Positions 28,700-51,114 of a stretch of 64,000 nucleotides of DNA are shown in pieces. Both the position numbers and the translations under genes were made by a program. The notes below the pieces were generated by a model. That model saw only the letters and a list, made by a program, of their open reading frames with translations. It was not told the origin of the DNA and made no database searches. This stretch comes from Halomarina ordinaria (GTDB lineage Archaea; Halobacteriota; Halobacteria; Halobacteriales; Haloarculaceae). The number at the start of each line of letters is the position of its first letter. The stretch's first letter is position 1. The stretch is from positions 1 to 64,000 of the forward strand of contig NZ_JARRAH010000005.1 of assembly GCF_030553305.1 (NCBI RefSeq), written 5' to 3'.

Positions 28700-28790
28700 G
28701 ACATACAACCACCTACTATTTTTAAAGGTAATCCAGAGCCACTAAACATTGATTAGTCTGTGGTAGAGAAATACAACAACTGATTGAACA

Positions 28791-30677
28791 ATGAGCGAGA
28801 AGCCATTTCCGGATGCCAGGTTTTCAACGCCCGAAGGCGAACTTGCATCCGCAGACTTGTTCGACATTAGTCACGACCCGGAACTCCTCCATGACTACAT
28901 TCAATCGCTGAAGCAACACTCCGAGTCCACTGACGACGGCTCAGCTGTTTCCATATATCGAAAAGTATCCATCTTCCAGCAATCAATGCAGTATCTCGAA
29001 GAGTTCGCCCTATACTTCACCGGATACGCCCAAAGACGGGAATCATTCATACAAACGCTACTTACTGGATACGGACACAGCTTCTACGACCACATTGAGC
29101 AAGGAAAGACAGACACCTATCTAGTGGAGCACGACGTCGAACAAAACTACACAGAGGTTATCAATCGAATATTCGGCTACTCACAGGTCGACACCTTCCA
29201 GCGAGATGATGATGAAGATTACACAGGTAGTATCGCAGGGGAAGAAGAGGAAGTCAAAGACGAGAAACTGGCCGAGCTCATTGATGTATCGGTCAAGTCA
29301 ATCAAGCGGCGAATCAGCAAGTGTGCCAATTTCTACATCAGATTTAGCGATATTTATAACGCTGTCAAACATGGTACAAGGGTCGTACCGCTCCCGGAGA
29401 ACGAATTCAGAATTACTCTGGAGACTGCAGACGGTGAGGAAACAATCGAACCTGTAGAGGACTATGCAATGTTCCTCTGCAAGGACGAGCTGCAGCAGCC
29501 ATATGCTGTCTATCATCCAATTGATGTTCTATCGAACCACGCTCTATCTATTGTTGAGTTAATTCACGAGATGTTCGTGCCGATGAAGCAGGTATCTGAG
29601 GCCCAGATCCATGGAGAAGACAAATTCAGAACGGCTTCTTTCGAGTCTGCAGAGGGTAGTGGCAACACGTTATCTTATGCTACAATTTGGAATCGGAGCA
29701 GTGCATTTGTGCTACCTGCTGATCAAGCGGCGAACTACGAATCTGCTGCTCGTAGTAGGGACATCGCGGTGAACATCACTCAGGATGGTAGTACGACAGA
29801 AGTGAGAACCGAGCTCGATGACCAACCCTCTGATGAATACCCCGTCATGACGTCTCTGGTGGTTAGCGGTACGAGTGGCCTCAAGCCGGACTATCTACTC
29901 AACTTCTCCGGGACTATCCACTTCGAGACTCTTGACGTCAAACAACATTGGGATCTTCTCAAAGCTGATGAGAGAATGAGAAGTGGAAGGTATGAACTCA
30001 ATTTCGTGGACGACCGAAGCGGGGACGTAGTAATTTCAGATACGCTTGAAGAGCCACTGTTCCCAGATCTCCCAGAACTACTCTCGGATGAGATCAGTTT
30101 GCTACTCTTTCGACTTCAAATGGCTGCAGAGCGACGCATTCCTGTCCCAGTAAAATTGAATGAAGAGCAGGAAGAGATTCTTGAGGGTAAGGTAGGCGAA
30201 TCACTGAATAGCGGGGGGGCAGAAACGATACTTTCACAGCTTGAGGACGTAGATTCGAGCCGATATCTGAATCTGTTTTTTGTCTGGGTTGATGAAGATG
30301 GGGATGTTTCCGAGTTAGAGCATGTAACAACCCAGGAAGACGGCAGTATCCGAGTGATGTGTTACGAAGGTAGTGAAGACCGTGATAGCGGTGAAGGCCC
30401 AGACTCTGACCAAGGCGAGCAGATGGAACTAAGCCAGGTAGACACCTTTGAGATTGGACTAAGCGATTTGAGTAAGACCGAGTTCGTAGAGTTTGCTCGG
30501 CGTGAGGACACTACAGTGACTGACCTATTGTCTCAGACATCACCTGTTCTACCCGACTCCGATTTTTCACCAGACCAATTGCTCAGAGTTGAGCCGACGC
30601 AGACCAGTTCCGACTTATGGCAAACCACTGAATCGCTCTACGTCTATCTACCAAGATCGGCATCACCCTCCGAGTAA
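28791..30677 (+). CDS. Large unknown protein with an NAVKHG segment
   Basis: I recognise no domain with confidence in this 628-residue acidic protein. The N-terminal third is helical and includes RRISKCANFYIRFSDIYNAVKHGTRV; the (Y)NxxKHG pattern is seen in some HEPN-like helical domains of toxin and defence proteins, so an RNase-type role is conceivable but unproven. The middle is beta-rich (SGTSGLKPDYLLNFSGTIHFE) and the tail is acidic. Base and codon use (more A+T, for example AGA and TCT codons) differ from the metabolic genes, suggesting transfer. No membrane segment is seen. Confidence 0.55.
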   Translation: MSEKPFPDARFSTPEGELASADLFDISHDPELLHDYIQSLKQHSESTDDGSAVSIYRKVSIFQQSMQYLEEFALYFTGYAQRRESFIQTLLTGYGHSFYDHIEQGKTDTYLVEHDVEQNYTEVINRIFGYSQVDTFQRDDDEDYTGSIAGEEEEVKDEKLAELIDVSVKSIKRRISKCANFYIRFSDIYNAVKHGTRVVPLPENEFRITLETADGEETIEPVEDYAMFLCKDELQQPYAVYHPIDVLSNHALSIVELIHEMFVPMKQVSEAQIHGEDKFRTASFESAEGSGNTLSYATIWNRSSAFVLPADQAANYESAARSRDIAVNITQDGSTTEVRTELDDQPSDEYPVMTSLVVSGTSGLKPDYLLNFSGTIHFETLDVKQHWDLLKADERMRSGRYELNFVDDRSGDVVISDTLEEPLFPDLPELLSDEISLLLFRLQMAAERRIPVPVKLNEEQEEILEGKVGESLNSGGAETILSQLEDVDSSRYLNLFFVWVDEDGDVSELEHVTTQEDGSIRVMCYEGSEDRDSGEGPDSDQGEQMELSQVDTFEIGLSDLSKTEFVEFARREDTTVTDLLSQTSPVLPDSDFSPDQLLRVEPTQTSSDLWQTTESLYVYLPRSASPSE

Positions 30678-30897
30678 CGTTTGAGAGTATCTGAGTTGAA
30701 CTCCTTGAAATGACTGATTATCGACAGATATGTGCCGGCAATTCCCCTTTTCGAGCCTTGTGTGACTAATTAAGACAGCTCTTGTAAATGCGGGCTAAAG
30801 GGATACAGACACATCATTGTGGTATCTCAATTTGTTGTACATGTACTCGGCATGGATCGTACTCATTCGCAGTTTATCAGTAAAGACTAGCAGATGC

Positions 30898-31143
30898 CTA
30901 TCGGTCTGACGTTGTATTGGTATGTCCCGGTAACCACCACACGACCCCTCGCGCCCCCACAGCCTTCGAGTGCAACACACCTGCTCGCTCTAACTTCTTC
31001 AGTCGGTCAAGCATCCCTCGACGCGTCAGCGAAAATTCACCGGCGAGGTCAGCGGTCGTCAGGACGGGATCAGATGCAGAACGGAACACCTCCAGGATCT
31101 CCTCGTCGCTAACCGTGGGTGGTCGACCGGGCGTTCCGCTCAT
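30898..31143 (-). CDS. Small winged-helix DNA-binding protein
   Basis: This 81-residue protein starts GRPPTVSDEEILEVFRSA, followed by LTTADLAGEFSLTRRGMLDRLKKLERAGVLHSK (helix-turn-helix with recognition helix) and a VWWLPG wing. This shape is frequent among short haloarchaeal regulators. The ATG at 31143 is used. It is likely a local repressor; the target is unknown. Nothing supported lies in the 220 bases upstream of its stop. Confidence 0.65.
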   Translation of the reverse strand: MSGTPGRPPTVSDEEILEVFRSASDPVLTTADLAGEFSLTRRGMLDRLKKLERAGVLHSKAVGARGVVWWLPGHTNTTSDR

Positions 31144-31325
31144 CACAGTGGCTTCTGAGCGACTACGGTTAGTGGTTTATTCCTTTGTGAAACGTATTGT
31201 CTGTTCATTCCTACAAAGGAGTTATATCGGTGGGCAGCCCTGCTAGTGAGCGATGACGTGTCCGCCCCACCCCTCAAGCATCACACGCCCCGACCTACTT
31301 CAGAGCGCGCCCTGCGAGTAGGTCG

Positions 31326-31688
31326 ATGACGGGGGAGTGGGCCGAAGAGGAATTCATCTCCGACCTCCACCATGCGCTTCGGACGACGCGGCGCCGCCTC
31401 GTCATCGAATTCCTCTCGACGAGTCCGAAGTCGACCGTCTCCCTACGCGTCCTTGCACAAGAGGTCGCCGCTCATGAGCAGGGCGTCGAGCCAGAGTTCG
31501 TGAGTGGAGAGCCCTACCGGAACGTGTACACTGCCCTCTCCCAGACGCATCTCCCGACACTCAGAGAAATTAGAATCGTCGAGTACGACGCTGCGCGTCA
31601 AACCGTCTCAGTCGGAGATACCCTCCCACTCGCCGCTCTTCTGGTGGCACTCAATCGCTCGACCGTCCGGACGCTCCGGCTTTGTTGA
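31326..31688 (+). pseudogene. DUF7344-like regulator truncated by an IS-type end
   Basis: The frame gives 120 residues: a helical start (ISDLHHALRTTRRRLVIEFLS), then AAHEQGVEPEFVSGEPYRNVYTALSQTHLPTLREIRIVEYD, matching the layout of the intact homologue at 61067-61432 (RTALQKTHLPMFSEMGFIEYQ). The stop codon lies inside the IS-type sequence that begins at 31678, so the last residues and the stop come from the insertion. A tail of perhaps 10-20 residues may be missing. It may still produce a winged-helix protein. Confidence 0.6.
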
Positions 31689-31888
31689 AATCCTCTGTAG
31701 ATGATGAGTTAGAGCGGACGTGCTGCATACAGGGCGCATATCTCTCTGATTACCCTTCCCTAAACAATCCTATATATGATAATACGCATGTGTCTCAACA
31801 TTCGAGTACACAAATGACAGTTCCGTAGTACTCTCGGTAGTGGTAGCACTGAAGTAGTTACACACCCGACATAAATGGGGGAGGAAAG

Positions 31889-32836
31889 ATGGGGGAAACT
31901 ATATCAGCAAAATGGCTCGGAGATGAATCCCTTCCGAATGAGGGGTGGCTCAAGTCGCATTGGGATCGTGAGACTGAACAAATGCAGACCGAAGAGATGG
32001 TCGAAGAGCAGCTACGCCAGAGCGATGCCGGACAACGTGTAAGAACACTGCGTCAAGAGCTCTCTCAGACCGCCGGATTTAGTGAAACAGAGATTGACGA
32101 CCTTCGGACTGAGTTGGCTAATCAGCAGCGCCAGAAATTAGATTCCATCCAAGATCGCCTCGGGAGGCACTCTGTGACGACGGAGACCATATCCCTTGAA
32201 GAGATTCTCGGTACCCCACTCTCAACGGAAAGCGTACCTCTAGTTGGATGGATCTCGCCGGACGATTCTTCCGTAGCTGTGAGGAGGAAGGGAACGAAAG
32301 AGCCGACACATATTGTTCGACTTGAGGAAGATTATACCGTCTTTCGGGGGGGTATGTCGGTTTCTGGTAATGGTGCCAACAATAAATACTGGGCGACACT
32401 AACAGTCTGGCTCTACTACAGCGTTCAGCCCCCAAAAAGAGGGATGCTTACCGTACGGGCCTTCCCTTCACTTCATGGGGGATACCAATTATCAGCTGAT
32501 GATTGGTTCCCTACCAACGCTGCCGCCCGGACTACAGGCGACTATCTCTGGGCTGCTACACAGAAAGGAAAACAAACCGGCATCATACATCAACGATTCC
32601 TCGAGGCAATGGAACGAAACGGGACAACGACGAGGAAGATCGACCGAATACGAGATCCTGTACATACGACACTGCCTGTAGCGGCTGACGAACCGGTGTA
32701 CCTTCAGTTTGGGTTTGAGTTGTATGCCGCTGGCGTATCGTCATTAGGCCAGGCTGATCTCTATTTTTACTGGGAGGAAGAACTTGGTCACCGTATCATC
32801 GTCCCGCCCCTGTACTGGACGCTCGAGCCGTTGTGA
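31889..32836 (+). CDS. Unknown protein with coiled-coil start and beta-rich core
   Basis: The first 100 of 315 residues are charged and helical (MQTEEMVEEQLRQSDAGQRV, ETEIDDLRTELANQQRQKLD), likely a coiled coil. The rest is beta-rich with many aromatic residues (YWATLTVWLYYSVQPPKRGM, YLQFGFELYAAG, DLYFYWEEELGHRIIVPPLYW), resembling a jelly-roll or carbohydrate-binding type sandwich. No signal peptide is visible. A viral or plasmid structural role is possible but cannot be shown. It lies inside the region bounded by IS-type ends. Confidence 0.5.
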   Translation: MGETISAKWLGDESLPNEGWLKSHWDRETEQMQTEEMVEEQLRQSDAGQRVRTLRQELSQTAGFSETEIDDLRTELANQQRQKLDSIQDRLGRHSVTTETISLEEILGTPLSTESVPLVGWISPDDSSVAVRRKGTKEPTHIVRLEEDYTVFRGGMSVSGNGANNKYWATLTVWLYYSVQPPKRGMLTVRAFPSLHGGYQLSADDWFPTNAAARTTGDYLWAATQKGKQTGIIHQRFLEAMERNGTTTRKIDRIRDPVHTTLPVAADEPVYLQFGFELYAAGVSSLGQADLYFYWEEELGHRIIVPPLYWTLEPL

Positions 32837-33233
32837 CGGTGATAGGCGAATTAGCTCGTGCTTCTCGTTTTTATCACACTAGTTGTTTTTGGAAAATGTA
32901 ACATGATTAGAGCAACTCCTCTGTTTTCAGCAGGACGTTCTTGAGAGGTGCCAAGAGAATTGTTCACCGGCGCGTTAAATAGAGCCTCTGCATACAGTAG
33001 CCTCTCAAGGAACTAATGACGGTCTGTTAGAACGACCATGCGGAATAAAGGACGTGAATGTGACATGAAGCGGATTGCGATTATGTGATGGGGTCAAATG
33101 CTCAGAATAAGGTTGAACACAGTGTGGTCGTTCCAGAGACAATCCGAACCACTCTCCACTCGGCACTCGATAATAATTCTGTACTAGGCGGTTCCAGCGC
33201 CTGCCTTATCTTCGTAGAGAGCGCAACGCTAGC
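32837..33233. other. Intergenic region, no gene seen
   Basis: These 397 bases are fairly AT-rich and contain no supported frame, RNA gene or clear repeat. They presumably carry the promoter of the Tat-signal protein gene that starts at 33234. Confidence 0.4.
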
Positions 33234-33722
33234 ATGAAACGACCAAGCTTAAAAAGACGTGATGTAATAAAAGCTACAGGAGCAGTAGCGCTTGGTGGGT
33301 TCACCCTCGCAACACCAGCTGCCGCCCAGGAAAACGTAGAAGTGAGAACCAGAAGCTTTGATTGTGAAGCTGCAAGCCGGACAATAATTGTTTCTTCTAT
33401 CCCAGGTACATCTGCAGATGTGAGGGTATCTGGGCCTGGAACGATTTCTCCTCTTTTCTTTACAGTAAAGGAAAGTCAAACTATAGTCAATATCACAAAT
33501 ATCACCTACAGCTCTGATGGAACTGCGATTTTCCGTATCACTGCGAAAAGTTTACAGACGGGTGCTATAGGGGTGATAGAGATTAGACATCACGAAGATT
33601 GCCCTGTCCCCGCACCACAAACCCGTGCGGATTGTTTGAATGGCGGGTGGGAAATGCGTGGCTTCCGCAACCAGGGCCAATGTATGCAGTGCGTTGAGTC
33701 CGGTAAGGGTTGTTCGGATTAA
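33234..33722 (+). CDS. Secreted Tat-substrate protein with Cys-rich C-terminus
   Basis: This 162-residue protein carries a twin-arginine signal: KRRDVIKATGAVALGG, a hydrophobic stretch, and a likely cut after AAA near residue 31 (TPAAAQENVEV). The mature part has a beta-sandwich-like repeat of strands and ends in a Cys-rich tail (DCLNGGWEMRGFRNQGQCMQCVESGKGC). It is probably folded in the cytoplasm and exported. The function is unknown. Base composition is markedly more AT-rich than the conserved blocks, in line with acquisition. Confidence 0.65.
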   Translation: MKRPSLKRRDVIKATGAVALGGFTLATPAAAQENVEVRTRSFDCEAASRTIIVSSIPGTSADVRVSGPGTISPLFFTVKESQTIVNITNITYSSDGTAIFRITAKSLQTGAIGVIEIRHHEDCPVPAPQTRADCLNGGWEMRGFRNQGQCMQCVESGKGCSD

Positions 33723-33733
33723 TCGTATTCTTC

Positions 33734-33858
33734 GGCTCTGTTGAAATCTTCTTGTAGTCTTGCGGTTCCCTGAGAAGGTCGTTCTGCGTCGGGTCCACGA
33801 AATCCAGTGGGAAGAGTAGCTCTTCTTGATGTTAAATCTGAAGGATTTCAACAAAGCC
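33734..33858. mobile_element. 125-bp MITE-like element
   Basis: The ends GGCTCTGTTGAAATC (33734-33748) and its inverted near-copy GATTTCAACAAAGCC (33844-33858) enclose 95 non-coding bases. Counting the outer C and G, the inverted ends are 16 bases. Size, lack of coding capacity and shared ends with the other elements in the window fit a miniature inverted-repeat transposable element. Confidence 0.6.
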
Positions 33859-33952
33859 GACGCTCCCCAATGTCGTCGAGCGAGCAGAGCGACGATAGTG
33901 AACCGATCAATACACAATACATAGTGTACTGGTGACTAGATAGTCACTCGAT

Positions 33953-34213
33953 ATGGAGCGAAATACAGCCCTCACAGTGTATCTTATTCTCCCGTGTCTA
34001 CTGTACGGAACTGCCTTTGCTACCATTGTGACCCAGTACCCCGAGATGATCAGTACAGAGCAACTCCGTGGGGTACACGCGGTGTTCGGAGCAGTAATCG
34101 CCTGCATTCTCTACACGAAAAAAGACGAGCTCACTGGGGGATGCCTGACGGTCGTCTCTGCCGTTCATCCCAAGCTCGATGTCTATTACCTGTCCTCGTC
34201 AATCGGCGATTGA
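33953..34213 (+). CDS. Small membrane protein
   Basis: This 86-residue protein has two predicted membrane helices, TVYLILPCLLYGTAFATIV and HAVFGAVIACILYT, followed by a short soluble tail. The ATG at 33953 is plausible, about 95 bp after the MITE-like element. It is not recognised as a family; it could be the truncated N-terminal part of a larger membrane protein, since the tail after residue 60 looks non-conserved. Confidence 0.4.
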   Translation: MERNTALTVYLILPCLLYGTAFATIVTQYPEMISTEQLRGVHAVFGAVIACILYTKKDELTGGCLTVVSAVHPKLDVYYLSSSIGD

Positions 34214-34305
34214 GTAAGGCGTCTGTGGCTGTACGAGGGCTATGCCACCCGCCAACACCCAGTCGCTTGGAGAATCAATCGAGAGGAGACATCGAGAGCA
34301 GAGCC

Positions 34306-35424
34306 ATGCCACGCGGTGACGACGCATCGACTGCAATCAGCGACGTCGTCCCGCGTATCACTGGAGACGGCTTTCGGGAGTGGTACCAACAAAAGCGGTT
34401 TCGCGAGAACATCAATCAGGGTACGCCGTACTTCAACGGAGTTCGTCCTCTCCCACCTCCCGAGAAGCACAGTCCGAGTCGCCTCTTGCAGTGCCACCGG
34501 AGGCACTACTACAATCTCCATAACACTCCCATCGAGACGGCACCTCCGACGGGCATCTTCTGGATCGGCTCACGGTTCGAGGAGGAGGTCGTCCTCCCGT
34601 TCCTTCGGGATGCCGTCGGACCGGCCTGGTACGTCCGAAACTCGATGTGGATCGACTTGACCATCAGTGTGGATGGCGAGGACCTCCGGATTCGAGGCGA
34701 GACCGACCCCGTCGTCGTCGACGCCGACAGCACGCCTCATCTATTGACCGAGGTGAAAACGACAACCTCTGTCTCGACGCTGACCGAGCCAAAACCCCAC
34801 CATCGAGCCCAAGCACACGCATATTTGTATGGCCTCTCGGAGCAGTACGACTGCACCATCAATGACGCGTTGATCATCTACGCAGAGCGCTCCAGTTTCG
34901 AGTTGCAGGTATTCGAAATCGAGTTCGACCCGGAGTTCTGGCACGACCGAGTACTCGAGTGGGCACGCACCGATACCGGCTATCGCTCACGTGAGGAACT
35001 CCCTCCCGCTACGCCAGAGTTCGACTGGGAGTGTCGGTACTGTTCGTATAAGCGCCGCTGTGGGAAAGAGAAGGCAGGCCACGAAGATGCACCACCTTCT
35101 GGATTACTTCCGTTGACGGACATCTACCCTCGGGAGCGTCTCGACGAGTATCTGCAGGCGTATCCAGAGGCACGTCTCACGCCGACGCTCGCAAATCGCT
35201 ATCCCGACCTCGCTACTGAGAATGGCGTGTACCCCTGGACCTGTCCCGTCTGTGGTCACGAAGTCCCGTTCGATACAGTGGAGTGGGACGGGGACACCGA
35301 GGCAACACCCGTGTGTCCGTCCTGCGCCGAGAATCGGATTTTCTCGGCGCTCGCTGGACCGACACCCGAGTACCAGCACCAGCTACTCATGGAGGAACCA
35401 ACCGATGAGCGAGCACGCCCCTGA
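34306..35424 (+). CDS. Cas4/RecB-like PD-(D/E)XK nuclease with probable iron-sulfur cluster
   Basis: This 372-residue protein has the Cas4-type layout: C63 near the N-terminus, then D134, E149 and K151 (GETDPVVV, LLTEVKTT), Q169 in RAQAHAYLYG (the QxxxY motif), and C243, C246 and C252 (WECRYCSYKRRCG). The four cysteines match the Fe-S site of Cas4 and AddB-like nucleases. A zinc-ribbon pair follows at the end (CPVCGHEV and CPSCAEN). I start at the ATG at 34306, because translation further upstream overlaps the small membrane protein. The end overlaps the TFB gene by 20 bp. No cas genes are near, so a replication or repair role is more likely. Confidence 0.75.
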   Translation: MPRGDDASTAISDVVPRITGDGFREWYQQKRFRENINQGTPYFNGVRPLPPPEKHSPSRLLQCHRRHYYNLHNTPIETAPPTGIFWIGSRFEEEVVLPFLRDAVGPAWYVRNSMWIDLTISVDGEDLRIRGETDPVVVDADSTPHLLTEVKTTTSVSTLTEPKPHHRAQAHAYLYGLSEQYDCTINDALIIYAERSSFELQVFEIEFDPEFWHDRVLEWARTDTGYRSREELPPATPEFDWECRYCSYKRRCGKEKAGHEDAPPSGLLPLTDIYPRERLDEYLQAYPEARLTPTLANRYPDLATENGVYPWTCPVCGHEVPFDTVEWDGDTEATPVCPSCAENRIFSALAGPTPEYQHQLLMEEPTDERARP

Positions 35425-36208
35425 GGACACATCCGGTTGTATTGGTGAGACTATCACCGAGCGCTGGTGTCCGGAATGTGCAGCGACCGACATCGACCGG
35501 ACAGTCCCCGCAGTTGAGGCGGTCTGTACAGTCTGTGGAATCGTCATCACCGACCTCGCTGCAACGACCGTCGAACCGACACCTGAACCACCAGATGAGG
35601 ACACAGCTGAACGCGCCGAGTGGACGGACGTCTATACGGTCTCGGATAGTACCGAACAGCGCCTCGCGGATGCGTTCACCTGTCTGGAGGCACTTGCAGA
35701 CCACCTCAAGGCGAGTGTCGACCTCAAGCTGCGTGCTGCGCAGGTGTACTGTGATGCTGCCCTCGCCGACCTCGTTGACGGCCGATCCACAGAAACCGTC
35801 GTCGCGAGCACGCTCCTCATTGCAGGGCACGACCTCGGCGATGCATATCCATCGAGGTGGGTTGCTCGGGAACTCGGCCTGCGCGAGCGGACCCTCCAGC
35901 GAACCACCCGTGACCTCACTCGCACGCTGGACCTACAGGGTGCGTCTCCCCCGGCGGGGTATCTCTCGTTTCTCCGCCGCGAACTCCACCTCGACGCTAC
36001 TACTGAACAGCAGGCACGAGGACTGCTGGAGCAGGTCGTAGCGGAGACCGCGATTGCGGGAAAGCATCCGGCGAGCGTTGCAGGCGCAGCACTCTATCTC
36101 AGTGCCGACGGTGCCGTCACACAGCGTGAGGTCGCTGACGCGGCCGGGGTCACCCAGGAGACGATCCGCGTTCGACTCCGTGAATTCCGGGAGGTACTCA
36201 AGACGTGA
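35405..36208 (+). CDS. TFB-type transcription initiation factor (TFIIB family)
   Basis: This 267-residue protein has an N-terminal zinc ribbon with C22, C25, C41 and C44 (CPECAATD, CTVCGIVI) and two cyclin-like repeats, the second including YLSADGAVTQREVADAAGVTQETIRVRLREF with the helix-turn-helix that contacts the BRE. It is shorter than chromosomal TFBs (about 300-330), with an abbreviated linker region. TFBs recruit RNA polymerase to TATA-bound promoters, so an accessory copy may redirect transcription. It overlaps the nuclease gene upstream and the recombinase gene downstream. Confidence 0.85.
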   Translation: MSEHAPEDTSGCIGETITERWCPECAATDIDRTVPAVEAVCTVCGIVITDLAATTVEPTPEPPDEDTAERAEWTDVYTVSDSTEQRLADAFTCLEALADHLKASVDLKLRAAQVYCDAALADLVDGRSTETVVASTLLIAGHDLGDAYPSRWVARELGLRERTLQRTTRDLTRTLDLQGASPPAGYLSFLRRELHLDATTEQQARGLLEQVVAETAIAGKHPASVAGAALYLSADGAVTQREVADAAGVTQETIRVRLREFREVLKT

Positions 36209-37158
36209 CGGGCGATTCTGAGCACATACTGGCGCCACAGCGGATCGCATCCGATGAGTTGGGTGAAGCATCGGCGGCGGTCTACGCCCGCACCTCCTCA
36301 GCAAATCAACGCTTCGGGCACTCGATCGACGAACAGGTCAGAGCGTGTTGTGACCGATGCCGTCTCCTCGGGTGGGAGGTGACCCACGTCTTCCGTGACG
36401 AAGCGGTGAGTGGAACGGAGATCGACCGGCCGATGTTCCAGCAGATGTTGCATGCGGCCGAGGCGGGCCACTTCGACGTCCTCGTCTTTTGGAAGCTCGA
36501 TCGCTTCTCGCGGAGCATCATGCACGCCGTCAAACTCGAACGGTCATTTCGAACGTGGGGTGTCGCCCTTCACAGCGCCACCGAGCATCTCGATACGACG
36601 ACTGCCACAGGCCAATTCAACTTCCGCAACATCGCGAATGCCGCCGAGTTCGAACGCGAACTCATCAAACAGCGGACCGCGATGGGGATGAAGGCACTCG
36701 CCCTCGAGCACAAGTGGCCCAACTCACGTCCCCCATTTGGGTATGCGAAGCGAGCGGATGGCCGCCTCGAAATCGATCTCGAAGAGGCCCGATGGGTCCG
36801 GTGGATCTTCGAGACGTATCTCGAGTATAAGTCGATGGCCGATGTCGCTCACATGCTGAACGACCAGGATGTGCCAACGGGAACTAGCACGGCGTGGACC
36901 ACGAATACGGTTCGAACAATCCTCACGAACGAGTTGTACGTCGGGCAGTACTCCGTCGCGGACGTCGAGGACGATGTCCCCGAGTATCGCCTGCTCGATG
37001 ACGAACTATTCACCAAAGCTCAGCGCGTCCGGACACGCTTTAGGCGCACGAGCGGAGAGCGGCCGAAGATGCGCCAGCACCGCAAAGAAACGCTTGTGGA
37101 GGGAATACTCCAGCAATACGAGGAATATCTCGAGACCGGACGATCTGCGGCCGACTAG
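36205..37158 (+). CDS. Serine recombinase (resolvase/invertase family)
   Basis: The 317-residue protein starts with GTG at 36205, overlapping the TFB stop by 4 bases. The catalytic domain has AAVYARTSS (catalytic Ser at 31 within ARTS), DEAVSGTEIDRPMFQQML and VFWKLDRFSRS. A recombinase domain follows (PPFGYAKRADGRLEIDLEEA, then SMADVAHMLNDQDVPTGTSTAW and ILTNELYVGQY). It should make site-specific recombination through a 5'-phosphoserine link. It is smaller than large phage integrases and lacks an obvious long coiled coil. Its coupling to a TFB and a Cas4-like nuclease is unusual. Confidence 0.85.
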   Translation: MTGDSEHILAPQRIASDELGEASAAVYARTSSANQRFGHSIDEQVRACCDRCRLLGWEVTHVFRDEAVSGTEIDRPMFQQMLHAAEAGHFDVLVFWKLDRFSRSIMHAVKLERSFRTWGVALHSATEHLDTTTATGQFNFRNIANAAEFERELIKQRTAMGMKALALEHKWPNSRPPFGYAKRADGRLEIDLEEARWVRWIFETYLEYKSMADVAHMLNDQDVPTGTSTAWTTNTVRTILTNELYVGQYSVADVEDDVPEYRLLDDELFTKAQRVRTRFRRTSGERPKMRQHRKETLVEGILQQYEEYLETGRSAAD

Positions 37159-37172
37159 TACTGAGCTATTAG

Positions 37173-38069
37173 TTATCGATTGAGGTGTTCCACGAACCAA
37201 TCGGTCGCTGGGGTGCTCGTCTCTTCGAACTTCTCGACGTATGCATCGAAGTGTCCACCATCGATGGTCACCAATCTCTTCGGTTCGTGCGCTTCCTCGT
37301 ACGTTTCAAACGCTTTGTCAGCTACGGCCAACTGATCGTTTTCTGCTACGATCATGAGGAGAGGGGTGGGGCTTATCCGCTCGACATAATCGATGGGAGA
37401 GTATTCACCGAGCATCTCGACTGTTCTGAGCGTCACTTTGTTCTCCCAGTTCGGCGCACGCTCCTCTTCCGTCTCTGTAAACCACCGGTAGGAATCCTGC
37501 GTTGGGAGAGCAGCATCACCAAGGAGATCCTCCGACACAACTGGAACCATCTGTGGCTCTTCGCCGTTGAACCGCGCAAGCCGGTCCTGATCGAACTGCT
37601 CACGGAATCCATCCAGAATATCAGGCCGGACGAGTCGGCGAAGGTTATGGTACCCGTCTGTGAGCGGGACTTGCGAGACGATAGCGTCCACTCGATTGTC
37701 GAGTGCACCCACAGTCAGAGCGTGGCCCCCACTATAGCTCGAACCCCAGACACCGATGTGGTTTCCATCGACTTCGTCGCGGGTGAGCGCGTACGTAATC
37801 GCATGCCGATAGTCCCGTACCTGTTGCCACGGGTCGATTTCGTATCGTGGTTCTCCGTCACTCTCGCCGAAGTTCCGGTTGTCAAAAACAAGCGCCGCAA
37901 GCCCGTTATCGCTGAATTTCTCCGCGTATTTGTCAAGGTACATCTCCTTGACTGCCGAAAACCCATGTGCCATTACAACCGTTGGAACGGGCCCATCAGC
38001 GTTGTCTGGCGTGTAGAGCCATCCTCGGAGGACATCACCTTCCGCCTCGAACTCGATATCTTCTCGCAT
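37173..38069 (-). CDS. Alpha/beta hydrolase
   Basis: In this 298-residue protein VVMAHGFSA provides the oxyanion-hole region (HG at 35-36), WGSSYSGGHA holds the probable nucleophile S111, VAENDQL the acid, and DGGHFDAY the catalytic His. The pattern resembles dienelactone-hydrolase or acetyl-xylan-esterase-like enzymes. The ATG at 38069 fits the family start. The substrate is unknown. It converges on the recombinase gene and is divergent from the short-chain dehydrogenase. Confidence 0.8.
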   Translation of the reverse strand: MREDIEFEAEGDVLRGWLYTPDNADGPVPTVVMAHGFSAVKEMYLDKYAEKFSDNGLAALVFDNRNFGESDGEPRYEIDPWQQVRDYRHAITYALTRDEVDGNHIGVWGSSYSGGHALTVGALDNRVDAIVSQVPLTDGYHNLRRLVRPDILDGFREQFDQDRLARFNGEEPQMVPVVSEDLLGDAALPTQDSYRWFTETEEERAPNWENKVTLRTVEMLGEYSPIDYVERISPTPLLMIVAENDQLAVADKAFETYEEAHEPKRLVTIDGGHFDAYVEKFEETSTPATDWFVEHLNR

Positions 38070-38261
38070 GTCATTTGTTATCCTACTGCGATTACAAATA
38101 CCTGTGTTCTCTGAAAGGTTATATTCTCTCAACTAGCACTACTAAATTTTAATCTTATTCACGATAGTAGACTACAATTTGAAAGTATCTAAAACAATGA
38201 CGTGGATAGATGGATGTTATCATTTAACATACGGCAGGCAAACGACTAGCTGGGATTTGAG

Positions 38262-39050
38262 ATGCCTCGAGACATCAGCGGGAAAGTGACGGTGGTAACG
38301 GGCGCGAGTTCAGGGAACGGACGAGCTATTGCCAAAGCCTTCGGCGAAGAGGGCGCACCAGTCGTGGTCGCCGACGTCGTCGAGGATCCCAGAGAAGGCG
38401 GGTATGAAGATGAATCCGGTATGACGACCGCAGAAGTCATCCGAGAGAGAGGTGGCGAAGCGACGTTCGTCGAATGCGATGTAACTGACCGAGACCAGAT
38501 ACGAGCGGCAATCGAGACTGCCGTGGATGAGTTCGGCTCATTTGACGTGATGGTAAACAACGCGGGTATTTTCACTCGCCTCGTCCCAACGTGGGAGACC
38601 ACCCAGGACGAATGGAACAAAACAATCGCCGTCAACCTGACTGGAGTCTGGAACGGGTGCAAAGAGAGCATCGATCAATTCCTTGAGGACGAAACGCAAG
38701 GGAATATCATCAATATCGCCTCGGGTGGTGGCATAGTCGGTCTGATCAATGAGCCAGCATACACCGCGTCCAAGGGAGGCGTGGTCCAGCTCACAAAAAC
38801 GGTAGCGCTGGACTGTGCTGACCACAAAATCAACGTCAATGCTGTGGCGCCAGGGTGGATCTCGACCTCTATGACACGCGAATACTTCGAAGACGAGGGG
38901 ATCCGAGAGGACCTCGAACAGAGCACGCCCTGGCCTCGATTGGGTCGCCCTGAAGACGTCGCCAATGCGTGTACCTTCTTGGCCGCCCCGGACTCTGAGT
39001 TCATCACTGGCAGCGTGTTAGCTGCTGATGGAGGATTTACCGCTCGCTAA
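38262..39050 (+). CDS. Short-chain dehydrogenase/reductase (SDR)
   Basis: The 262-residue classical SDR has cofactor motif TGASSGNG (13-20), NNAG (99-102), catalytic S154, Y167 and K171 (YTASK), and a C-terminal GSVLAADGGF. It reduces or oxidises a carbonyl/alcohol with NAD(P)H in the cytoplasm. A regulatory gap of 192 bp separates it from the divergent hydrolase gene, with an AT-rich stretch at 38140-38230 that likely carries both promoters. The substrate is not deducible. Confidence 0.88.
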   Translation: MPRDISGKVTVVTGASSGNGRAIAKAFGEEGAPVVVADVVEDPREGGYEDESGMTTAEVIRERGGEATFVECDVTDRDQIRAAIETAVDEFGSFDVMVNNAGIFTRLVPTWETTQDEWNKTIAVNLTGVWNGCKESIDQFLEDETQGNIINIASGGGIVGLINEPAYTASKGGVVQLTKTVALDCADHKINVNAVAPGWISTSMTREYFEDEGIREDLEQSTPWPRLGRPEDVANACTFLAAPDSEFITGSVLAADGGFTAR

Positions 39051-39297
39051 GGGGAAAACCATCAGACCCCTCTAGTTTGGTTCAACAACCTCCGGTAGTT
39101 TCCGCTCCCGTAATCACGACTCACCGACTACACACGTCAGATTCGTCAAGATGAACATATACGGTGCATACGAGCAGTCTGTACTCGTCGCATTGCGCGA
39201 CTGGACACAGTCGAGAACGATGATACGGGACGTCGGCCATCAGTAAAACGACCCCCAATCAGTAGGACTACAACACGAAGAATATTCTAGAGCATTC

Positions 39298-39651
39298 GTG
39301 TCCCCCGACCCAGACAGAAGACCGGAAGCAGTCGTCAAGCGACAGACAGAGGCATACAACGAGGGTGATATCGAGGCATTCACCGCGTGTTACGCCGAGG
39401 ACGCTGTGATTGAGCGACTCGACGCCGAGGGGGTCGTTGCGAACGGAGACGATGAGATTCACGACCAATATCGCGAACTGTTCGAGATGCTCCCTGAACT
39501 CACATGCGGGGTGACCGATGAGTTCACTTTCGGAGAGTATGTCGCCTGCAAAGAGCGAGTTACGGGAACAGACGATCCTGTCGTTGCTCTTGCCGTCTAT
39601 CTGGTTCGGGATGATGTAATTCAACACCTCTGGCTTGGTGGCGAACCCTAG
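39298..39651 (+). CDS. SnoaL/NTF2-like small protein
   Basis: This 117-residue protein starts with GTG at 39298. KRQTEAYNEGDIEAFTACYAEDAVIERLDAEG is the NTF2-like helix-helix-strand start, and DEIHDQYRELFEMLPEL is the following helix; the strands end in VIQHLWLGG. This is typical of nuclear-transport-factor-2-like proteins of the ester-cyclase/SnoaL type. It stands 247 bp after the SDR gene and may belong to the same pathway. Confidence 0.7.
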   Translation: MSPDPDRRPEAVVKRQTEAYNEGDIEAFTACYAEDAVIERLDAEGVVANGDDEIHDQYRELFEMLPELTCGVTDEFTFGEYVACKERVTGTDDPVVALAVYLVRDDVIQHLWLGGEP

Positions 39652-39937: not shown

Positions 39938-40600
39938 TTACTCGTCACGCATCTCCTCCAAGAACTGCTCAAGTTCCTTGGCTATTCCTTGGAGCGTGCG
40001 ATAGTCAGGCCACTTCGATTGCCGGTCACACTCATTACACTGGTAGTTTTGAACCGAGATCTCTCCCGTTTGCTTTACCCCGTTTTTCACCAAGTCTACG
40101 CTACCACATGCGGGACAGTGAAGCTGCAAATTCGGGGCGACATTCACTAACCCGTCGATGCCAATCAGATCGACGAAGTCCGTTGGCTCTACCGTCTCGT
40201 TCGTCTGCGAGTAGGTCCTCGTCTTCGCCGCAATGACGTTCTGGACCCGTGTGTAGAGTTGTTCGTCGACGATCGCCAAATCCGCGTCGTCCACAACGAC
40301 CTTCTTGTCGTCGACCCGACTGGAATCGACGTTCATCGTGGGCTTTCCGATGTAAACAGGGCGCTGGAGGAGGTTACTCACCTGCCCTCGGGTCGGTCGG
40401 ATACCCCGATGCCCGTATTGTTCCGCCAAGTGGTCTGCCGTTCGTTGATAATTTTGGTGTTCGAGGAAGTGCTCGAACATATCTCGAACGACGTCGACCT
40501 GGTCCGGATCTGGTGTAATCCACGTTGGACTCGTATCGTCATCATCGCTCTCCGGGAGAGGGGACGAGTCCTCACTTCCGGAGTGGCCTTGACAGCTCAT
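39938..40600 (-). CDS. C-terminal half of a split serine recombinase (recombinase and zinc-ribbon domains)
   Basis: This 220-residue protein has the recombinase domain, DPDQVDVVRDMFEHFLEHQNYQRTADHLAEQ and SNLLQRPVYIGKPTM, followed by a zinc ribbon (CPACGSVDLV and CNECDR) and a helical tail. It has no catalytic serine domain, which is encoded by the overlapping upstream frame. Its ATG overlaps the TGA of the catalytic half (ATGA at 40597-40600). The first 25 residues (Ser/Asp/Pro-rich) look like linker sequence. Confidence 0.65.
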   Translation of the reverse strand: MSCQGHSGSEDSSPLPESDDDDTSPTWITPDPDQVDVVRDMFEHFLEHQNYQRTADHLAEQYGHRGIRPTRGQVSNLLQRPVYIGKPTMNVDSSRVDDKKVVVDDADLAIVDEQLYTRVQNVIAAKTRTYSQTNETVEPTDFVDLIGIDGLVNVAPNLQLHCPACGSVDLVKNGVKQTGEISVQNYQCNECDRQSKWPDYRTLQGIAKELEQFLEEMRDE

Positions 40601-41319
40601 TGGTCATCCCCCTTCTCAGCTTGGTATCCAAGTGGCACTGTGTTGAACACCGACCACCAGTTTCGTTGATTTTCGAATTTGTGGATGACGGTCTTGAGAG
40701 AGTTCGTGACACGGGTTTCGGTCGATACGTGCGCTGACAACGACTTGAGCGTGGTTGTGATCAAGTCGTCAATACACTCCCCAATGTTCACCTCCTCTCG
40801 CTCCATATTGACTCTGATTCCCTCATTGTTGAGGAGATGGAGGAGATAGAGCGTTTCAGGAGCGTTGCGCCCTATCCGACTGACATCGTTAACGACCAAC
40901 ACGTCGAATTTGCCGCTTCTGGCTAGTTTGAGCACTCTACGAATGCCCGCTCTTCGGAAATCAGTTCCAGTTTCTCCGTCATCCACGATCTCAAAGACGA
41001 CCTCGTAGCCTTGTTCTCTGGCGAGTTTACGCAGATTCTGGAGTTGCCTCTCGAGGCTTTCACCATCAGTCACCTGACGGAGCGTGGACACTCGCACATA
41101 AATGAGGGCGCGAAGTGGCCGATCCATCTCTTTTTTCTCTAGCAATTCTCCTAACTCCGTGACGGTGATCGAAGAGACCGACTCATCACCCACAGATTGA
41201 TACTGGTTCGTTGCTGAGTCAGGTGTGTTGAGAGTGCGTCCGACAGGGGTATCCGAGTAGTCAGAGATCGCAGCCTGATGATCCACTGCGGAAGGCATCT
41301 GCGATGGCTCAGCAGACAT
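40597..41319 (-). CDS. Catalytic half of a split serine recombinase
   Basis: This 240-residue protein has the resolvase fold: ALIYVRVSTLRQVTDGESLERQ (catalytic Ser in RVS), EIVDDGETGTDFRRAGIRRVL and VLVVNDVSRIGRNAPETLYLL. It ends at VPLGYQAEKGDDQ, exactly where the recombinase domain would begin. The first 65 residues are an unusual extension. The overlap with the next gene suggests translational coupling of the halves; a frameshift in an originally single gene is the alternative. Confidence 0.72.
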   Translation of the reverse strand: MSAEPSQMPSAVDHQAAISDYSDTPVGRTLNTPDSATNQYQSVGDESVSSITVTELGELLEKKEMDRPLRALIYVRVSTLRQVTDGESLERQLQNLRKLAREQGYEVVFEIVDDGETGTDFRRAGIRRVLKLARSGKFDVLVVNDVSRIGRNAPETLYLLHLLNNEGIRVNMEREEVNIGECIDDLITTTLKSLSAHVSTETRVTNSLKTVIHKFENQRNWWSVFNTVPLGYQAEKGDDQ

Positions 41320-41796: not shown

Positions 41797-42804
41797 ATGA
41801 TCACCGATGCTCGGGTGTTGCGTGCTGACTTCGTTCCGCGTGACGTCGAGCATCGCGACAGCGAGGTCGATGCACTCTCGGCAGTCTTAGAACCACTGGC
41901 GAGTGGTGAGCCGTCCGACCCGGCCATCCTGCTCGGTCCTTCTGGAGCAGGAAAGACGTGCATCTCGCAGTTCACGCTCGAACAACTGCGCCAGGCCGTC
42001 CTCGATATCGAAGTCCAGTACGTGAATTGCTGGCAGAACTACTCGGAGTATCGCGTGCTCTATCGCGTCCTCGAAGGGCTCGGCAAGACCATCGACATCC
42101 ATCGCCAATCGACCCCTCGCGATGAATTGCTCGAGCGGCTTCGCCAGTACGACGGGCCGCCCTGTGTCGTAATCCTCGATGAAGCCGACCAGCTGGAGGA
42201 CAAGCGAATGCTCTACCATCTGCACTCGCTGCCGCAGTTCACGCTCGTCCTCATCGCCAACGAAGAAGCCGAAATCTTCGCGAGCGCTGACGAACGCGTG
42301 ACCAGCCGATTTGTGGGCGCCGAACGCATCCAGTTCGACCGGTATTCTGTCCCGGAGCTCATTGCCATCATGGACGCGCGTGTCCGGTGGGGCCTGCAAC
42401 CCGACGTCGTTGGGGAGGGAACGCTCCGGACGATTGCGGACGTCGCTGCCGGCGATGCCCGAGCCGCGCTAAGTATCCTCCGGAACGCCGCTCGTCACGC
42501 CGACCAGAAGGGTGTCGAACGCATCACGCCAGACCTACTTGAAGCCGCCATCCCCGATGCCCGCCTCGAGGTCCGGCGCAAGAACGTCGACACGCTCACC
42601 CCCCACCAGCGCACCCTCTACGAACTCATCGAAGAGACAGGAACGATCGACCCCGCGGCCCTCTACGAGGAGTATCGCAGTCGCGTCGAGAACCCGAAAG
42701 CCGACCGCACCGTTCGAAATTACCTCCAGAAACTCGCTCGCTACAATCTGATTCGTATCGAGGGGACGAGTCGTGACCGGCGCTACTGTCGTGTCGAATA
42801 CTGA
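41797..42804 (+). CDS. Orc1/Cdc6-family replication initiator or AAA+ paralogue
   Basis: This 335-residue AAA+ protein has Walker A GPSGAGKT (about 47-54), Walker B VVILDEAD, a sensor-type region (LVLIANEEAE) and a lid with AGDARAALSILRNAARHA, the Orc1/Cdc6 signature. A C-terminal winged helix (LTPHQRTLYELIEETGTIDPAALYEEYRSR) ends the protein. It is shorter than typical archaeal Orc1 (about 400). The preceding 280 bp are AT-rich at 41560-41670 (GTTTAAATTTAATATTC), but I could not find clear origin repeats there. Confidence 0.82.
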   Translation: MITDARVLRADFVPRDVEHRDSEVDALSAVLEPLASGEPSDPAILLGPSGAGKTCISQFTLEQLRQAVLDIEVQYVNCWQNYSEYRVLYRVLEGLGKTIDIHRQSTPRDELLERLRQYDGPPCVVILDEADQLEDKRMLYHLHSLPQFTLVLIANEEAEIFASADERVTSRFVGAERIQFDRYSVPELIAIMDARVRWGLQPDVVGEGTLRTIADVAAGDARAALSILRNAARHADQKGVERITPDLLEAAIPDARLEVRRKNVDTLTPHQRTLYELIEETGTIDPAALYEEYRSRVENPKADRTVRNYLQKLARYNLIRIEGTSRDRRYCRVEY

Positions 42805-45085: not shown

Positions 45086-46486
45086 TCAGTGATGATGGTC
45101 GTTTGCTCTCGCACTGTCGCTTGCGATGGAGGATACGGAGAGGAACTCGGACGGGTCGGTTTCGAAGGCTCGTTTACAGTGGGTAGAGCAGAAGTAGAAC
45201 GTCTCCCCGCGATGCGTCACCTGGGGAGCGTCGTCGTCAGTCCGCATCCCACAGACTGGGTCACGATATCGGCCGGGCGCTCCGAGCCCACGCCAGTAGG
45301 CGTACAAGAGGACACCGGAAAGGGCGAACGCGATCACGTTCAGGTAGAACGTATAGTTGATTGTGAAGTACGTCTGTTCGGAGGCGGTCTCGCCCCCAGC
45401 GAGGTCCGGGACGATTCCAAGAGCGCTGAACAATTCCTCCATGAGAAAGCCTGTGAAGGCCATCGTGACGAAGAACACACCGAGGATGTACAACATCACC
45501 TTCCAGCCGTAGTACTTGCGGTAGACGTTCAGAACGGGAATCGTGATGAGGTCAGCGTAGACGAACGCGATGACCCCTGCGAAACTAACTCCCCCACCCC
45601 ATAGCGCGACGGCGAACGGGACGTTGCCGATACTCCCGACGAAACTGATGACCGCGATTGTGACGCCCATAACTGCGTTCTCGGCGCTCGCGATGACGCC
45701 GTCTCCTCGGATGAAGAGGGCATTCCAGACCCACTGCGGGACGAACACGATGACGAACCCCGAAATTAGGAATCCCGCGACAACGTCCTTCCAGATCATT
45801 GCCCACTCCTTGCGGTACTGGTTTCCGAGTTTGTACCAGCCGCCCCACGAGAGGAGTTCGTCACGCCACCCGCCGCTACTGGCTGCCTCCTGCTGGTAGG
45901 TCTCCAGACAGCCCTTCGAGCAGAACTTCAGGGTCTCACCTCCATCGGTCGCGATCGAGTACTGGTCGTTCCCTTCCATTCCGCAGGTCGGGTCTTCCGT
46001 CACGCCCTGCTCGTCGTCACGCTGGGTCAGTTCCGCTCGGACCTGCTCGAAGAGGTTCTCGGGAAGCGTGACGTGGACGATGAGCGCCATCACGGTGATG
46101 AGTACGAGTCCGCCGAGGAGCTCTGCGACGAGGAACTCCCAGCCCAGAAGGATCAATATCATGAGTCCGAGTTCGACGATGAGGTTCGTCGAGGCGAACA
46201 TGAACGCGAGGACGTTCACGACGTGCGCACCCTTCTTGAACAGGCCTTTTCCGATCGCGACAGCGCCGAAGCTACAGCCGCTGCTCGCAGCACCGAACAC
46301 CGTCGCCTTAGTGAGTCCACCCAGGCTTTCCTCCCCGAGGAGTCGCGCCATCCGCTCCTTGGAGACATAGACCTGCACGAGGCTCGTGATGGTGAGTCCC
46401 ATAATAATCGCCCACGAAGCCGTCCAGAGGAATCCCCCGCCGATTCGTATCGCCTCGAGAACCCCATCGATTACTGTGGTTTGCAT
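45086..46486 (-). CDS. Permease with internal and C-terminal TRASH/YHS metal-binding modules
   Basis: The protein has 466 residues from the ATG at 46486. Membrane segments resemble the DUF318 / ArsP-YraQ permease family (WTASWAIIMGLTITSLVQVY, FGAASSGCSFGAVAIG, FMFASTNLIVELGLMILIL, then GSIGNVPFAVALWGGGVSFAGV). Between the two membrane halves is a TRASH-like module (DPTCGMEGND, C189 and C193 in FCSKGC), and the C-terminus has a YHS-type module (DPVCGMRTDD, then FYFCSTHC) with a His tail. Soft-metal ions could be handed to the channel by these modules. It sits in the copper island, and the transported ion is inferred. Confidence 0.78.
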   Translation of the reverse strand: MQTTVIDGVLEAIRIGGGFLWTASWAIIMGLTITSLVQVYVSKERMARLLGEESLGGLTKATVFGAASSGCSFGAVAIGKGLFKKGAHVVNVLAFMFASTNLIVELGLMILILLGWEFLVAELLGGLVLITVMALIVHVTLPENLFEQVRAELTQRDDEQGVTEDPTCGMEGNDQYSIATDGGETLKFCSKGCLETYQQEAASSGGWRDELLSWGGWYKLGNQYRKEWAMIWKDVVAGFLISGFVIVFVPQWVWNALFIRGDGVIASAENAVMGVTIAVISFVGSIGNVPFAVALWGGGVSFAGVIAFVYADLITIPVLNVYRKYYGWKVMLYILGVFFVTMAFTGFLMEELFSALGIVPDLAGGETASEQTYFTINYTFYLNVIAFALSGVLLYAYWRGLGAPGRYRDPVCGMRTDDDAPQVTHRGETFYFCSTHCKRAFETDPSEFLSVSSIASDSARANDHHH

Positions 46487-46726
46487 AGTGTTACCTACTA
46501 ACCCGCAATTTTTGCCAGTGTCTCTTACGAAGCCAGCGTGGTCCTCGCTGTGAACCTCACCTTCGAAAGGTCGGGCAGTGAACGAAACACGCGATGGGAA
46601 AGGGGTCCCGCGAGGTACCCCGAGGAGGGACCACCAGCAGGGTGGTCGTCGAACGAACGTCGCGCGAGCACTGGCGAAAATGCGCGGGAGCCACCTGCCG
46701 GAGGGAGTAGTCACCGTGTCTGAGAG

Positions 46727-46882
46727 TCAGGGCAGAATCGAGGGGCCGATTCCCCAAGCGGCCCCCGTCGAGACCGGGCGCTCCCCGTCCTCGACAAGCG
46801 TCGCGACTGCAGCGAGATGGTCAGCTTCGAACGCATGTCTCATACCGAAGGCCCCGCCGACGAGAAGCGCACCTTCGAGCAT
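46727..46882 (-). pseudogene. Fragment of a NicO/UreH-type nickel/cobalt transporter
   Basis: Only 51 residues remain. FGMRHAFEADHLAAVATLVE contains the HxxxxDH motif of nickel/cobalt transporters of the NicO/UreH type, but the frame ends after AAWGIGPSILP where further membrane helices are expected. No other part was found nearby, so this is a remnant left by deletion. Confidence 0.65.
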
Positions 46883-47001
46883 GCGTGCTCTCGCTTCGAG
46901 AGCGGCAAATAACTGGTGTGCTCTGTCACGACACCGCGATACGACCATCCGCACCGTAACACTCAGCACCATCGTGGTCGTGGGTGGCGAGAGACGAGCA
47001 T

Positions 47002-48009
47002 ATGGCAGCGACACCCGTCTCTCTCGCGCTCGGTCTCCTCCTTCTGGCTATCGTCGTCGTGGATCTGCTGTGGACGGCGCTGTGGGTGGAAGGGGGAGCC
47101 GGCCCGCTCACGTCCCGACTGATGGCGTGGATGTGGCGGGCACTCAGACGAGTTGGAAGGGACGACGACCGATTCCTCTCGCTTGCGGGGCCGCTCGTCC
47201 TCGTGACCGGCCTCACGGTGTGGCTCCTGTTGCTCTGGGTCGGGTGGACGCTCGTCTTCGCCACGTCGGACGCCGTCCTGGTCGACACCGTCGACGGAGG
47301 CGCAATCTCGTGGACCGACCGCCTCTACTTCACCGGGTACACGATGTTCACCCTCGGGAACGGCGACCTCGTCCCGCGGGAGGGCGTCTGGCAACTCGCG
47401 ACCGTCCTCGTCACAGCCAGCGGAATGCTCCTCGTCACGCTCAGCGTCACGTACGTGCTCTCAGTTCTGGACGCGGTCACCCAGAAGCGCGCGTTCGCCG
47501 GCGGCGTGAGTGGGCTCGGACAGCGAGGCGACGAACTCGTCGTGACGGCGTGGGACGGACAGACGTTCCAAGGACTCGACCTGCAACTGAGCGCGTACAC
47601 GACGCAACTGAACACGCTCACAGCGAATCACAAGGCGTACCCCATCCTTCACTACTTCTACAGCGCGCAGACCGAGCAGGCTCCGGTCACGAGTATCGCC
47701 GTCCTCGACGATGCACTCACCCTCCTGAAGTACGGCGTGCCCGAGGACGACCGGCCCAGTGACGCCATCGTCGAGAACGCGTGGTCGAGCGTCGAGGGGT
47801 ACCTCGAGACGCTCCATGGGGCGTTCATCCGACCCGCGAACCGGCTGCCACCGGACCCGGACATCGCCTCACTCCGCGCCGCGGGCGTTCCAACGGTCCC
47901 CGACCGCGAGTTCGAGGCAGCGCTCGACGAGTTAGACGACCGACGGCGGACCGTCCTGGGGCTCGTCGAGTCCGACGCGCGGCGATGGCCGACTCGGGAC
48001 ACCCGATAA
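47002..48009 (+). CDS. Two-helix potassium-channel-like protein
   Basis: The protein has 335 residues. An N-terminal membrane region (LALGLLLLAIVVVDLLWTALW, VLVTGLTVWLLLLWVGWTLVF) leads to a pore loop with YFTGYTMFTLGNGDLVP and a final helix ATVLVTASGMLLVTLSVTYVLSVL. TLGNGD replaces the canonical TVGYGD filter, so ion selectivity may be altered. The remaining 180 residues are soluble and helical. I start at the ATG at 47002. Its location among copper genes may be coincidental. Confidence 0.75.
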   Translation: MAATPVSLALGLLLLAIVVVDLLWTALWVEGGAGPLTSRLMAWMWRALRRVGRDDDRFLSLAGPLVLVTGLTVWLLLLWVGWTLVFATSDAVLVDTVDGGAISWTDRLYFTGYTMFTLGNGDLVPREGVWQLATVLVTASGMLLVTLSVTYVLSVLDAVTQKRAFAGGVSGLGQRGDELVVTAWDGQTFQGLDLQLSAYTTQLNTLTANHKAYPILHYFYSAQTEQAPVTSIAVLDDALTLLKYGVPEDDRPSDAIVENAWSSVEGYLETLHGAFIRPANRLPPDPDIASLRAAGVPTVPDREFEAALDELDDRRRTVLGLVESDARRWPTRDTR

Positions 48010-48552
48010 CTCAGGTCGATAGCCGGTCACGAGAGAGCGAGCGTCTCGTATGACTGTGGACGCACCTCGGCGAGCCGAGCCGAGTCCATACTGCCTTCGC
48101 CAGCGATATCGTACGACTCGTCACGCGGAGGGCGTATGTGCAACGACAGCGAGCACTCAGAGAGAGGACGTAGTTCCGGCTGGCAGCCGAATTAGGGGCA
48201 TCATGACGCGACCGAGAAGCGTCATAGAGAGGGCGATAAAGAGCGAAAGCGGACACGGGTAGAGCAGTTACCACTCGAAGAAGCCGAAAACAATCCAGAG
48301 AGGACGCGATTAGTCGAAGCGGGCGAGACGGAGGGTACACACGGTCACGAGAACCCACGAGAACCGAAACAACGACGGCGGCCATGGTGCGGGGGGATGT
48401 ACGCCGGCCACGAACAGCGGTTCTGCCAGCGCTTTTTCGTCTCAACCCTGCTGTCGAATCTCTCGACCTCGCGGTACCGAACCTACCAATGGCCCCCACA
48501 TCGAGAGAGGTTCGCCTGCCGATTGACGAGACGTTCGACCATGAGTCTCGTT
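48010..48552. other. Intergenic region, no gene seen
   Basis: Several open frames cross this region, but none has a motif or haloarchaeal-type codon use. It separates the convergent channel gene and multicopper oxidase gene. Nothing regulatory was recognised. Confidence 0.4.
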
Positions 48553-51006: not shown

Positions 51007-51114
51007 CAGTGGGTTAGCGGACAACGAATCGGGTACGGTGGTGGACCCGTTTTCGCGAGAGTCACGACCGCAGAGCAGAGATATCCGTAAGCTGACAGCC
51101 GTCCTCCGACAGGT

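Follow-up and report, generated by a model that had tools for sequence, protein, structure and literature searches.

The SCC elements carry CcrA and CcrB, a pair of large serine recombinases. The locus described here resembles them in having two serine recombinases in cargo-bearing islands, but SCC elements are without a TFB or a Cas4-like gene, and here one recombinase (Rec1) lacks the Zn ribbon that the other (Rec2) has, and the two recombinase genes converge. A TFB paralogue carried by a mobile element is also found in the thaumarchaeal integrative-conjugative elements, in which TFIIB adjoins ParB and conjugation genes are present (PMC6563490); in contrast, the TFB of our locus sits firmly between a Cas4-like nuclease on one side and serine recombinases on the other, and neither ParB nor a conjugation gene was found in the four-gene set. 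Sulfolobus TFB3 offers a further likeness, as a TFB paralogue that activates in trans and is unable to replace TFB, although it is damage-induced and no recombinase linkage has been described for it (PMC7289017). Cas4-family nucleases outside CRISPR loci, recruited by mobile elements, are known as MGE- or solo-Cas4, and the main text of that work mentions neither TFIIB nor a resolvase (Hudaiberdiev 2017, PMC5704561); the nuclease subfamily of our locus (Cas4L) differs in its extra C-terminal CxxC ribbon. Tn7-like transposons likewise join a mobile core to defence cargo (PMC8649781), but no TnsABC was found in our four-gene set, the chemistry of which is that of serine recombinases. In the literature the archaeal serine recombinases are said never to have been investigated in full (PMC8371274), and we found no description of the quartet in the open-licence papers searched. 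The quartet is related to known mobile and defence-island recombination modules, and a TFB without its reader is unusual as a core component.

We report Cas4L, TFB, Rec1 and Rec2 as an apparently undescribed DNA-recombination module spread among haloarchaea, in most cases next to genes for defence against viruses. The window, that is the whole stretch of 64,000 nucleotides of Halomarina ordinaria DNA that was analysed, holds the module as a single copy in the host genome (Table 1), together with about ten other TFB-like genes elsewhere in that genome, mostly longer and of 28-31% identity. The initial annotation had described a nuclease, a TFB and a serine recombinase overlapping on the + strand, and these ORFs and their domains hold: Cas4L and TFB overlap by 20 nt and TFB and Rec1 by 4 nt (GTGA). 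It had overlooked two features, a fourth gene, Rec2 (39938-41319, -), and the palindrome found at 34200-34218. In the window 2.8 kb of other genes separate Rec2 from the trio, and Rec2 is interrupted where its Recombinase domain begins: a stop, with an ATGA overlap, divides it into two ORFs, which may represent a pseudogene or a two-part protein; because of this split, the window copy of the module may be partly disabled. Also on this replicon are metal-related genes at 45086-54799 (an ArsP-type permease with a YHS domain, a multicopper oxidase and a P-type ATPase) and, at 57874-60030 (+), a family B DNA polymerase gene with a homing-endonuclease-like PADLOC match.

Table 1. Features of the module and its surroundings in the window
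Feature	Position	Strand	Remarks
Cas4L, Cas4-like PD-(D/E)XK Fe-S nuclease	34306..35424	+	372 aa; Pfam, PADLOC, residues kept in 20 homologues, PDB 4ic1
Short TFB, Zn ribbon and two cyclin repeats, altered recognition helix	35405..36208	+	267 aa
Rec1, serine recombinase, Resolvase and Recombinase domains, without Zn ribbon	36205..37158	+	317 aa
Rec2 N-terminal half, catalytic domain; second serine recombinase, convergent	40597..41319	-	
Rec2 C-terminal half, Recombinase domain and Zn ribbon	39938..40600	-	
Alpha/beta hydrolase between Rec1 and Rec2	37173-38132	-	
SDR-like gene between Rec1 and Rec2	38262-39050	+	
Small ORF between Rec1 and Rec2	39298-39651	+	
Palindrome CAATCGGCGATTGAGTAAG, candidate recombination (attachment) site	34200..34218	+	conserved across module loci
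Weaker second palindrome copy	28772..28795	+	PWM 18.0

Loci were found through TFB, Cas4L and Rec1 searches, followed by profile annotation of the neighbourhoods. The three-gene set, which the initial annotation had proposed to look for elsewhere, recurs together with Rec2 at 27 non-redundant haloarchaeal loci from about 20 genera, with several partial loci besides, an arrangement that is far beyond chance. The recombinase family of Rec1 adjoins the TFB in all 28 of the top class-wide TFB matches with a fetched neighbourhood (L032-L059). The majority gene order is Cas4L-TFB-Rec1 facing a convergent Rec2, a second order (Cas4L-Rec1-TFB facing Rec2) is seen in L016, L114-L118 and L129, and the genes of L128 are rearranged. 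The gap from Rec1 or TFB to the convergent Rec2 is usually 0-134 bp; in the window and a few other loci 0.6-8 kb of other genes fill it. Since Rec1 and Rec2 are so close in most other copies, the genes at 37173..39651 in the window were probably inserted later or are cargo.

The four genes are inherited together and follow host taxonomy only weakly. Across the 27 non-redundant loci the four proteins have correlated distance matrices (r 0.49-0.85; 0 of 999 permutations), and protein distances are nearly equal within and between host families (0.67 versus 0.70 for the TFB). Quartet copies of 86-92% identity occur in three genomes (L114, L115 and L116), where the match is confined to the 4.37 kb of the four genes, beginning at the palindrome and finishing at a common sequence (...CACCTAT) between unrelated flanks, with a 1.1-kb insert in the third copy. 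In Halorhabdus, H. amylolytica (L025) and a genus-mate (L026) have in common an island of 16-20 kb at 89-94% identity which holds the quartet and a tyrosine recombinase pair, with differing flanks, exchanged or variable inner segments and no direct repeat at its ends. The proposal in the initial annotation of a mobile-element module is therefore borne out, as the trio is conserved elsewhere, its genes are co-inherited and nearly decoupled from host family, and near-identical copies sit in unrelated flanks. A viral origin of the module was rejected, as IMG/VR holds no close relatives of Cas4L and Rec1. The tyrosine recombinase pair of the two Halorhabdus islands lies beyond Rec2 (L025 6087-6977, L026 11751-12641); its YR2 looks intact, and YR1 appears to be without the usual catalytic HxxR and Tyr. 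A helicase-like protein of ~670 aa adjoins YR2 in three unrelated islands (L027 12869-14893, L118 13488-15509 and L122 2738-4744).

The most unusual member is the short TFB. The B-reader and B-linker, which act inside the polymerase at opening and escape (PMC7289017), are missing in 34 of 34 short TFBs and kept by canonical TFBs of the same genome; their place is taken by a short, mostly acidic linker of roughly 30-45 residues. The Zn ribbon (C22/C25/C41/C44, CxxC...CxxC) has invariant cysteines in the 29-30 aligned copies, and its cysteines and the two cyclin-fold repeats are kept in all 34 short TFBs, the window protein matching the Pfam TFIIB repeat (PF00382) at 5e-18 in two stretches. An AlphaFold model (pLDDT 87, linker disordered) returned 1d3u_B/1ais_B in Foldseek, with the cyclin core fitting P. 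woesei TFBc at 2.6-2.9 A. In a comparison of the DNA-contact helix with that of canonical TFBs, of the kind suggested in the initial annotation, the helix proved altered, with ET for VT in 29 of 29 short TFBs and RNRY in none of the 29 (canonical BRE helix EVTIRNRY). Because the Zn ribbon and cyclin folds are conserved, this is specialisation and not the decay that the initial annotation had allowed for. As judged from sequence, with the B-reader and B-linker missing and the recognition helix altered, the short TFB is more likely to be a regulator or targeting factor specific to its element than an initiation factor that works alone.

Cas4L of the window matches Pfam PDDEXK_1 (9e-8) and PADLOC Cas4 (2e-12), with Cas_Cas4 below the cut-off (0.006), and its catalytic D134/E149/K151 and Fe-S cysteines C63, C243, C246 and C252 are invariant in 20 copies, all of which also bear the C-terminal CxxC...CxxC ribbon. 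Its structure prediction is of only moderate quality (pLDDT 71); the nearest structures are Cas4 proteins, namely SSO0001 (PDB 4ic1) and a type I-C Cas4. No cas1 or cas2 was found among the window neighbours scanned; the module neighbours of Cas4L are the TFB and the recombinases. Rec1 (Resolvase 2e-34, Recombinase 3e-18 in the window) and Rec2 are catalytically intact-looking serine recombinases, and both have the catalytic and Recombinase domains of a phiC31-type large serine integrase (PF00239, PF07508), split in Rec2; the Zn-ribbon domain of that type is present in Rec2 and absent from Rec1. A Tn7-like reading, prompted by the TnsC-like match of a neighbouring gene (Cdc6L) and by the pairing of Cdc6L with Cas4L on plasmids, was rejected, as quartets are without Cdc6L: it lies directly before Cas4L only in loci without a quartet (L018-L022, L064, L065 and others). 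In the window this Cdc6/TnsC-like AAA gene (41797-42804, +) is 6.4 kb downstream of Cas4L; in other haloarchaeal plasmids its family directly precedes a Cas4L, a ~600-aa transposase follows at about 1 kb, and the family has its own conserved upstream sequence, GATTTCGGAAATCACACGCGC. The Cdc6L and Cas4L arrangement has the look of another, distinct element that draws on the same nuclease family.

The initial annotation had pointed to 37160-37200 as the place to look for a recombination site; none is evident there, and a conserved palindrome lies instead upstream of the operon at 34200. This palindrome, CAATnnnCGATTGAGCAAGT, is found 60-110 bp before Cas4L in about two thirds of the quartets checked. 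A PWM trained on primary sites picked by eye scored 30 sites above 17 across 33 module loci and not one in the 507 kb of 29 control loci. Extra copies, which are outside the training set, number 8 against 0 expected; they are spread over seven loci, one of which is the window, with its copies at 28772 and 34198. A scan of 292 genomes for the pattern, allowing up to one mismatch, gave 12 matches, of which 7 adjoin module genes; the reversed control gave about 7. A related palindrome lies some 230 bp downstream from where tRNA-Arg begins, both in genomes that have an island there and in others in which no module was recognised at that place. The left end of the 4.37-kb unit coincides exactly with the palindrome. 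Several observations count against the recombination model proposed below: the right end of the unit bears no resemblance to the palindrome, a clear palindrome was not found in eight quartets (L066, L118, L120-L124 and L127), and a search of relatives found no empty site, the left flank of L114 being an IS and the flanks of L128 having no counterpart in relatives. Nor were att repeats of tRNA 3' ends found in the loci or genomes tested. Because some quartets are without the palindrome and no empty site was found, we go no further than to infer from the sequence comparisons that it is the attachment site of the module. Between the two direct palindrome copies of the window (28772-34198) lies a 5.4-kb low-GC segment (28.8-34.2 kb), the first ORF of which (28791-30677, 628 aa) belongs to a scattered unannotated family seen in 14 of 292 haloarchaeal genomes.

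The neighbourhoods of the module are rich in defence genes. In a PADLOC comparison of matches below 1e-20, in which the counts are of redundant families and not of proteins, 188 families were matched among 95 flank ORFs and 15 among 95 control ORFs of the same genomes; flank matches include PbeA/PbeC and a class I Argonaute, and control matches are mostly AAA and TnpB-like. By PADLOC or ORF reading, type I restriction systems lie beside the modules L074, L120, L083, L121 and L126, with an OLD-like gene near L120; McrBC-like, PLD-SNF2 and IIG-methyltransferase genes surround L128, and BrxHII/DrmD-like and C5-methyltransferase genes surround L029. A homologous HsdMSR block lies before the palindrome in L074, is inverted in L083 and is found between Rec1 and Rec2 in L120, and these differing positions suggest repeated exchange. 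Defence islands attract mobile genes generally, a point against the model proposed here, as is the redundancy of the PADLOC counts; the genes between Rec1 and Rec2 in the window are not defence genes, and the TmtA-like defence gene of the window plasmid is 17 kb from the module. This gene (10263-16904, -) encodes a 2213-aa protein with a full-length match to the PADLOC defence model TmtA at 1.6e-88.

We propose that the quartet is a mobility module that works by site-specific recombination in haloarchaeal defence islands, with the TFB as an element-specific regulator or targeting factor, a model that we regard as probable with moderate confidence. Rec1 and Rec2 would probably act together on the palindrome, 60-110 bp ahead of the first gene, and so bring about excision, integration or exchange of DNA in genomic islands in which defence systems are frequent. 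Cas4L would be expected to process DNA ends or to shield the element from host nucleases. The TFB, which keeps the TBP/TATA-binding parts (cyclin folds) and the polymerase-binding part (Zn ribbon) but is without the reader and linker that work inside the polymerase at promoter opening, and has a changed recognition helix, would most likely serve as an element-specific regulator, whether by activating in the manner of TFB3 or by competing with host TFBs, or else position the recombinases.

It is possible, though on the doubtful side, that the palindrome serves the Cas4L operon as an operator or promoter element, to which the TFB would bind, or else the small winged-helix protein whose gene often lies immediately before, and that the recombinases use other sites. 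The palindrome lies at a regulatory distance from the first gene, is found before TFB in L028/L029 and before Rec1 in L128 as well, and is often where a small HTH gene ends. Homology between element copies starting exactly at the palindrome speaks against an operator, as do the related palindromes at the host boundary downstream of tRNA-Arg, where no module gene adjoins, and palindromes at both outer ends of the L128 module. We think it rather unlikely that the islands are ordinary tyrosine-integrase islands at tRNA genes with the quartet as a passenger, for instance an inversion/regulation or anti-defence cassette. In about ten loci the tyrosine recombinase YR2, which could be the actual integrase, adjoins Rec2, and tRNA-Arg/Glu/Ala genes lie 1-9 kb upstream in several loci, but YR2 is not beside the module in the window, L114, L115, L117, L128 or L129, the window has no YR2-type match above threshold, and the 4.37-kb unit common to genomes with different flanks is without it.

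The proposal in the initial annotation that the element brings its own initiation factor, a working alternative TFB that switches promoters during transfer, now appears quite unlikely: mobile elements with TFIIB genes exist in the thaumarchaeal ICEs (PMC6563490), and the strictly conserved Zn ribbon and cyclin repeats, with a core that fits TFBc, would suit such a factor, but the reader and linker are uniformly missing and the invariant ET replaces the canonical VT...RNRY helix. That the quartet is itself a defence system of nuclease, DNA-binding TFB and recombinases is very unlikely, the least favoured of the explanations considered. Its place in defence islands, and the occurrence of Cas4-like nucleases in defence, would fit, but the presence of two serine recombinases and the defined ends of the 4.37-kb unit speak for mobility, and PADLOC gave no match to Rec1 and only a weak HTH match to the TFB.

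An extension of the mobility model, which we put forward as speculation and consider very unlikely, is a recombination platform in which the reader-less TFB, with or without TBP, would choose or license the site for a two-serine-recombinase machine that would capture defence cassettes and shuffle them between copies of the palindrome. The logic of such an archaeal cassette system guided by a promoter-recognition protein would be analogous to that of Ty3, the integration of which is guided by TFIIIB. A widespread module that couples two serine recombinases, a nuclease and a stripped-down TFB would be a concrete vehicle for the turnover of haloarchaeal defence islands. It would further provide a natural setting for testing what a TFB is capable of without its reader, and possibly new recombination tools for halophile genetics.
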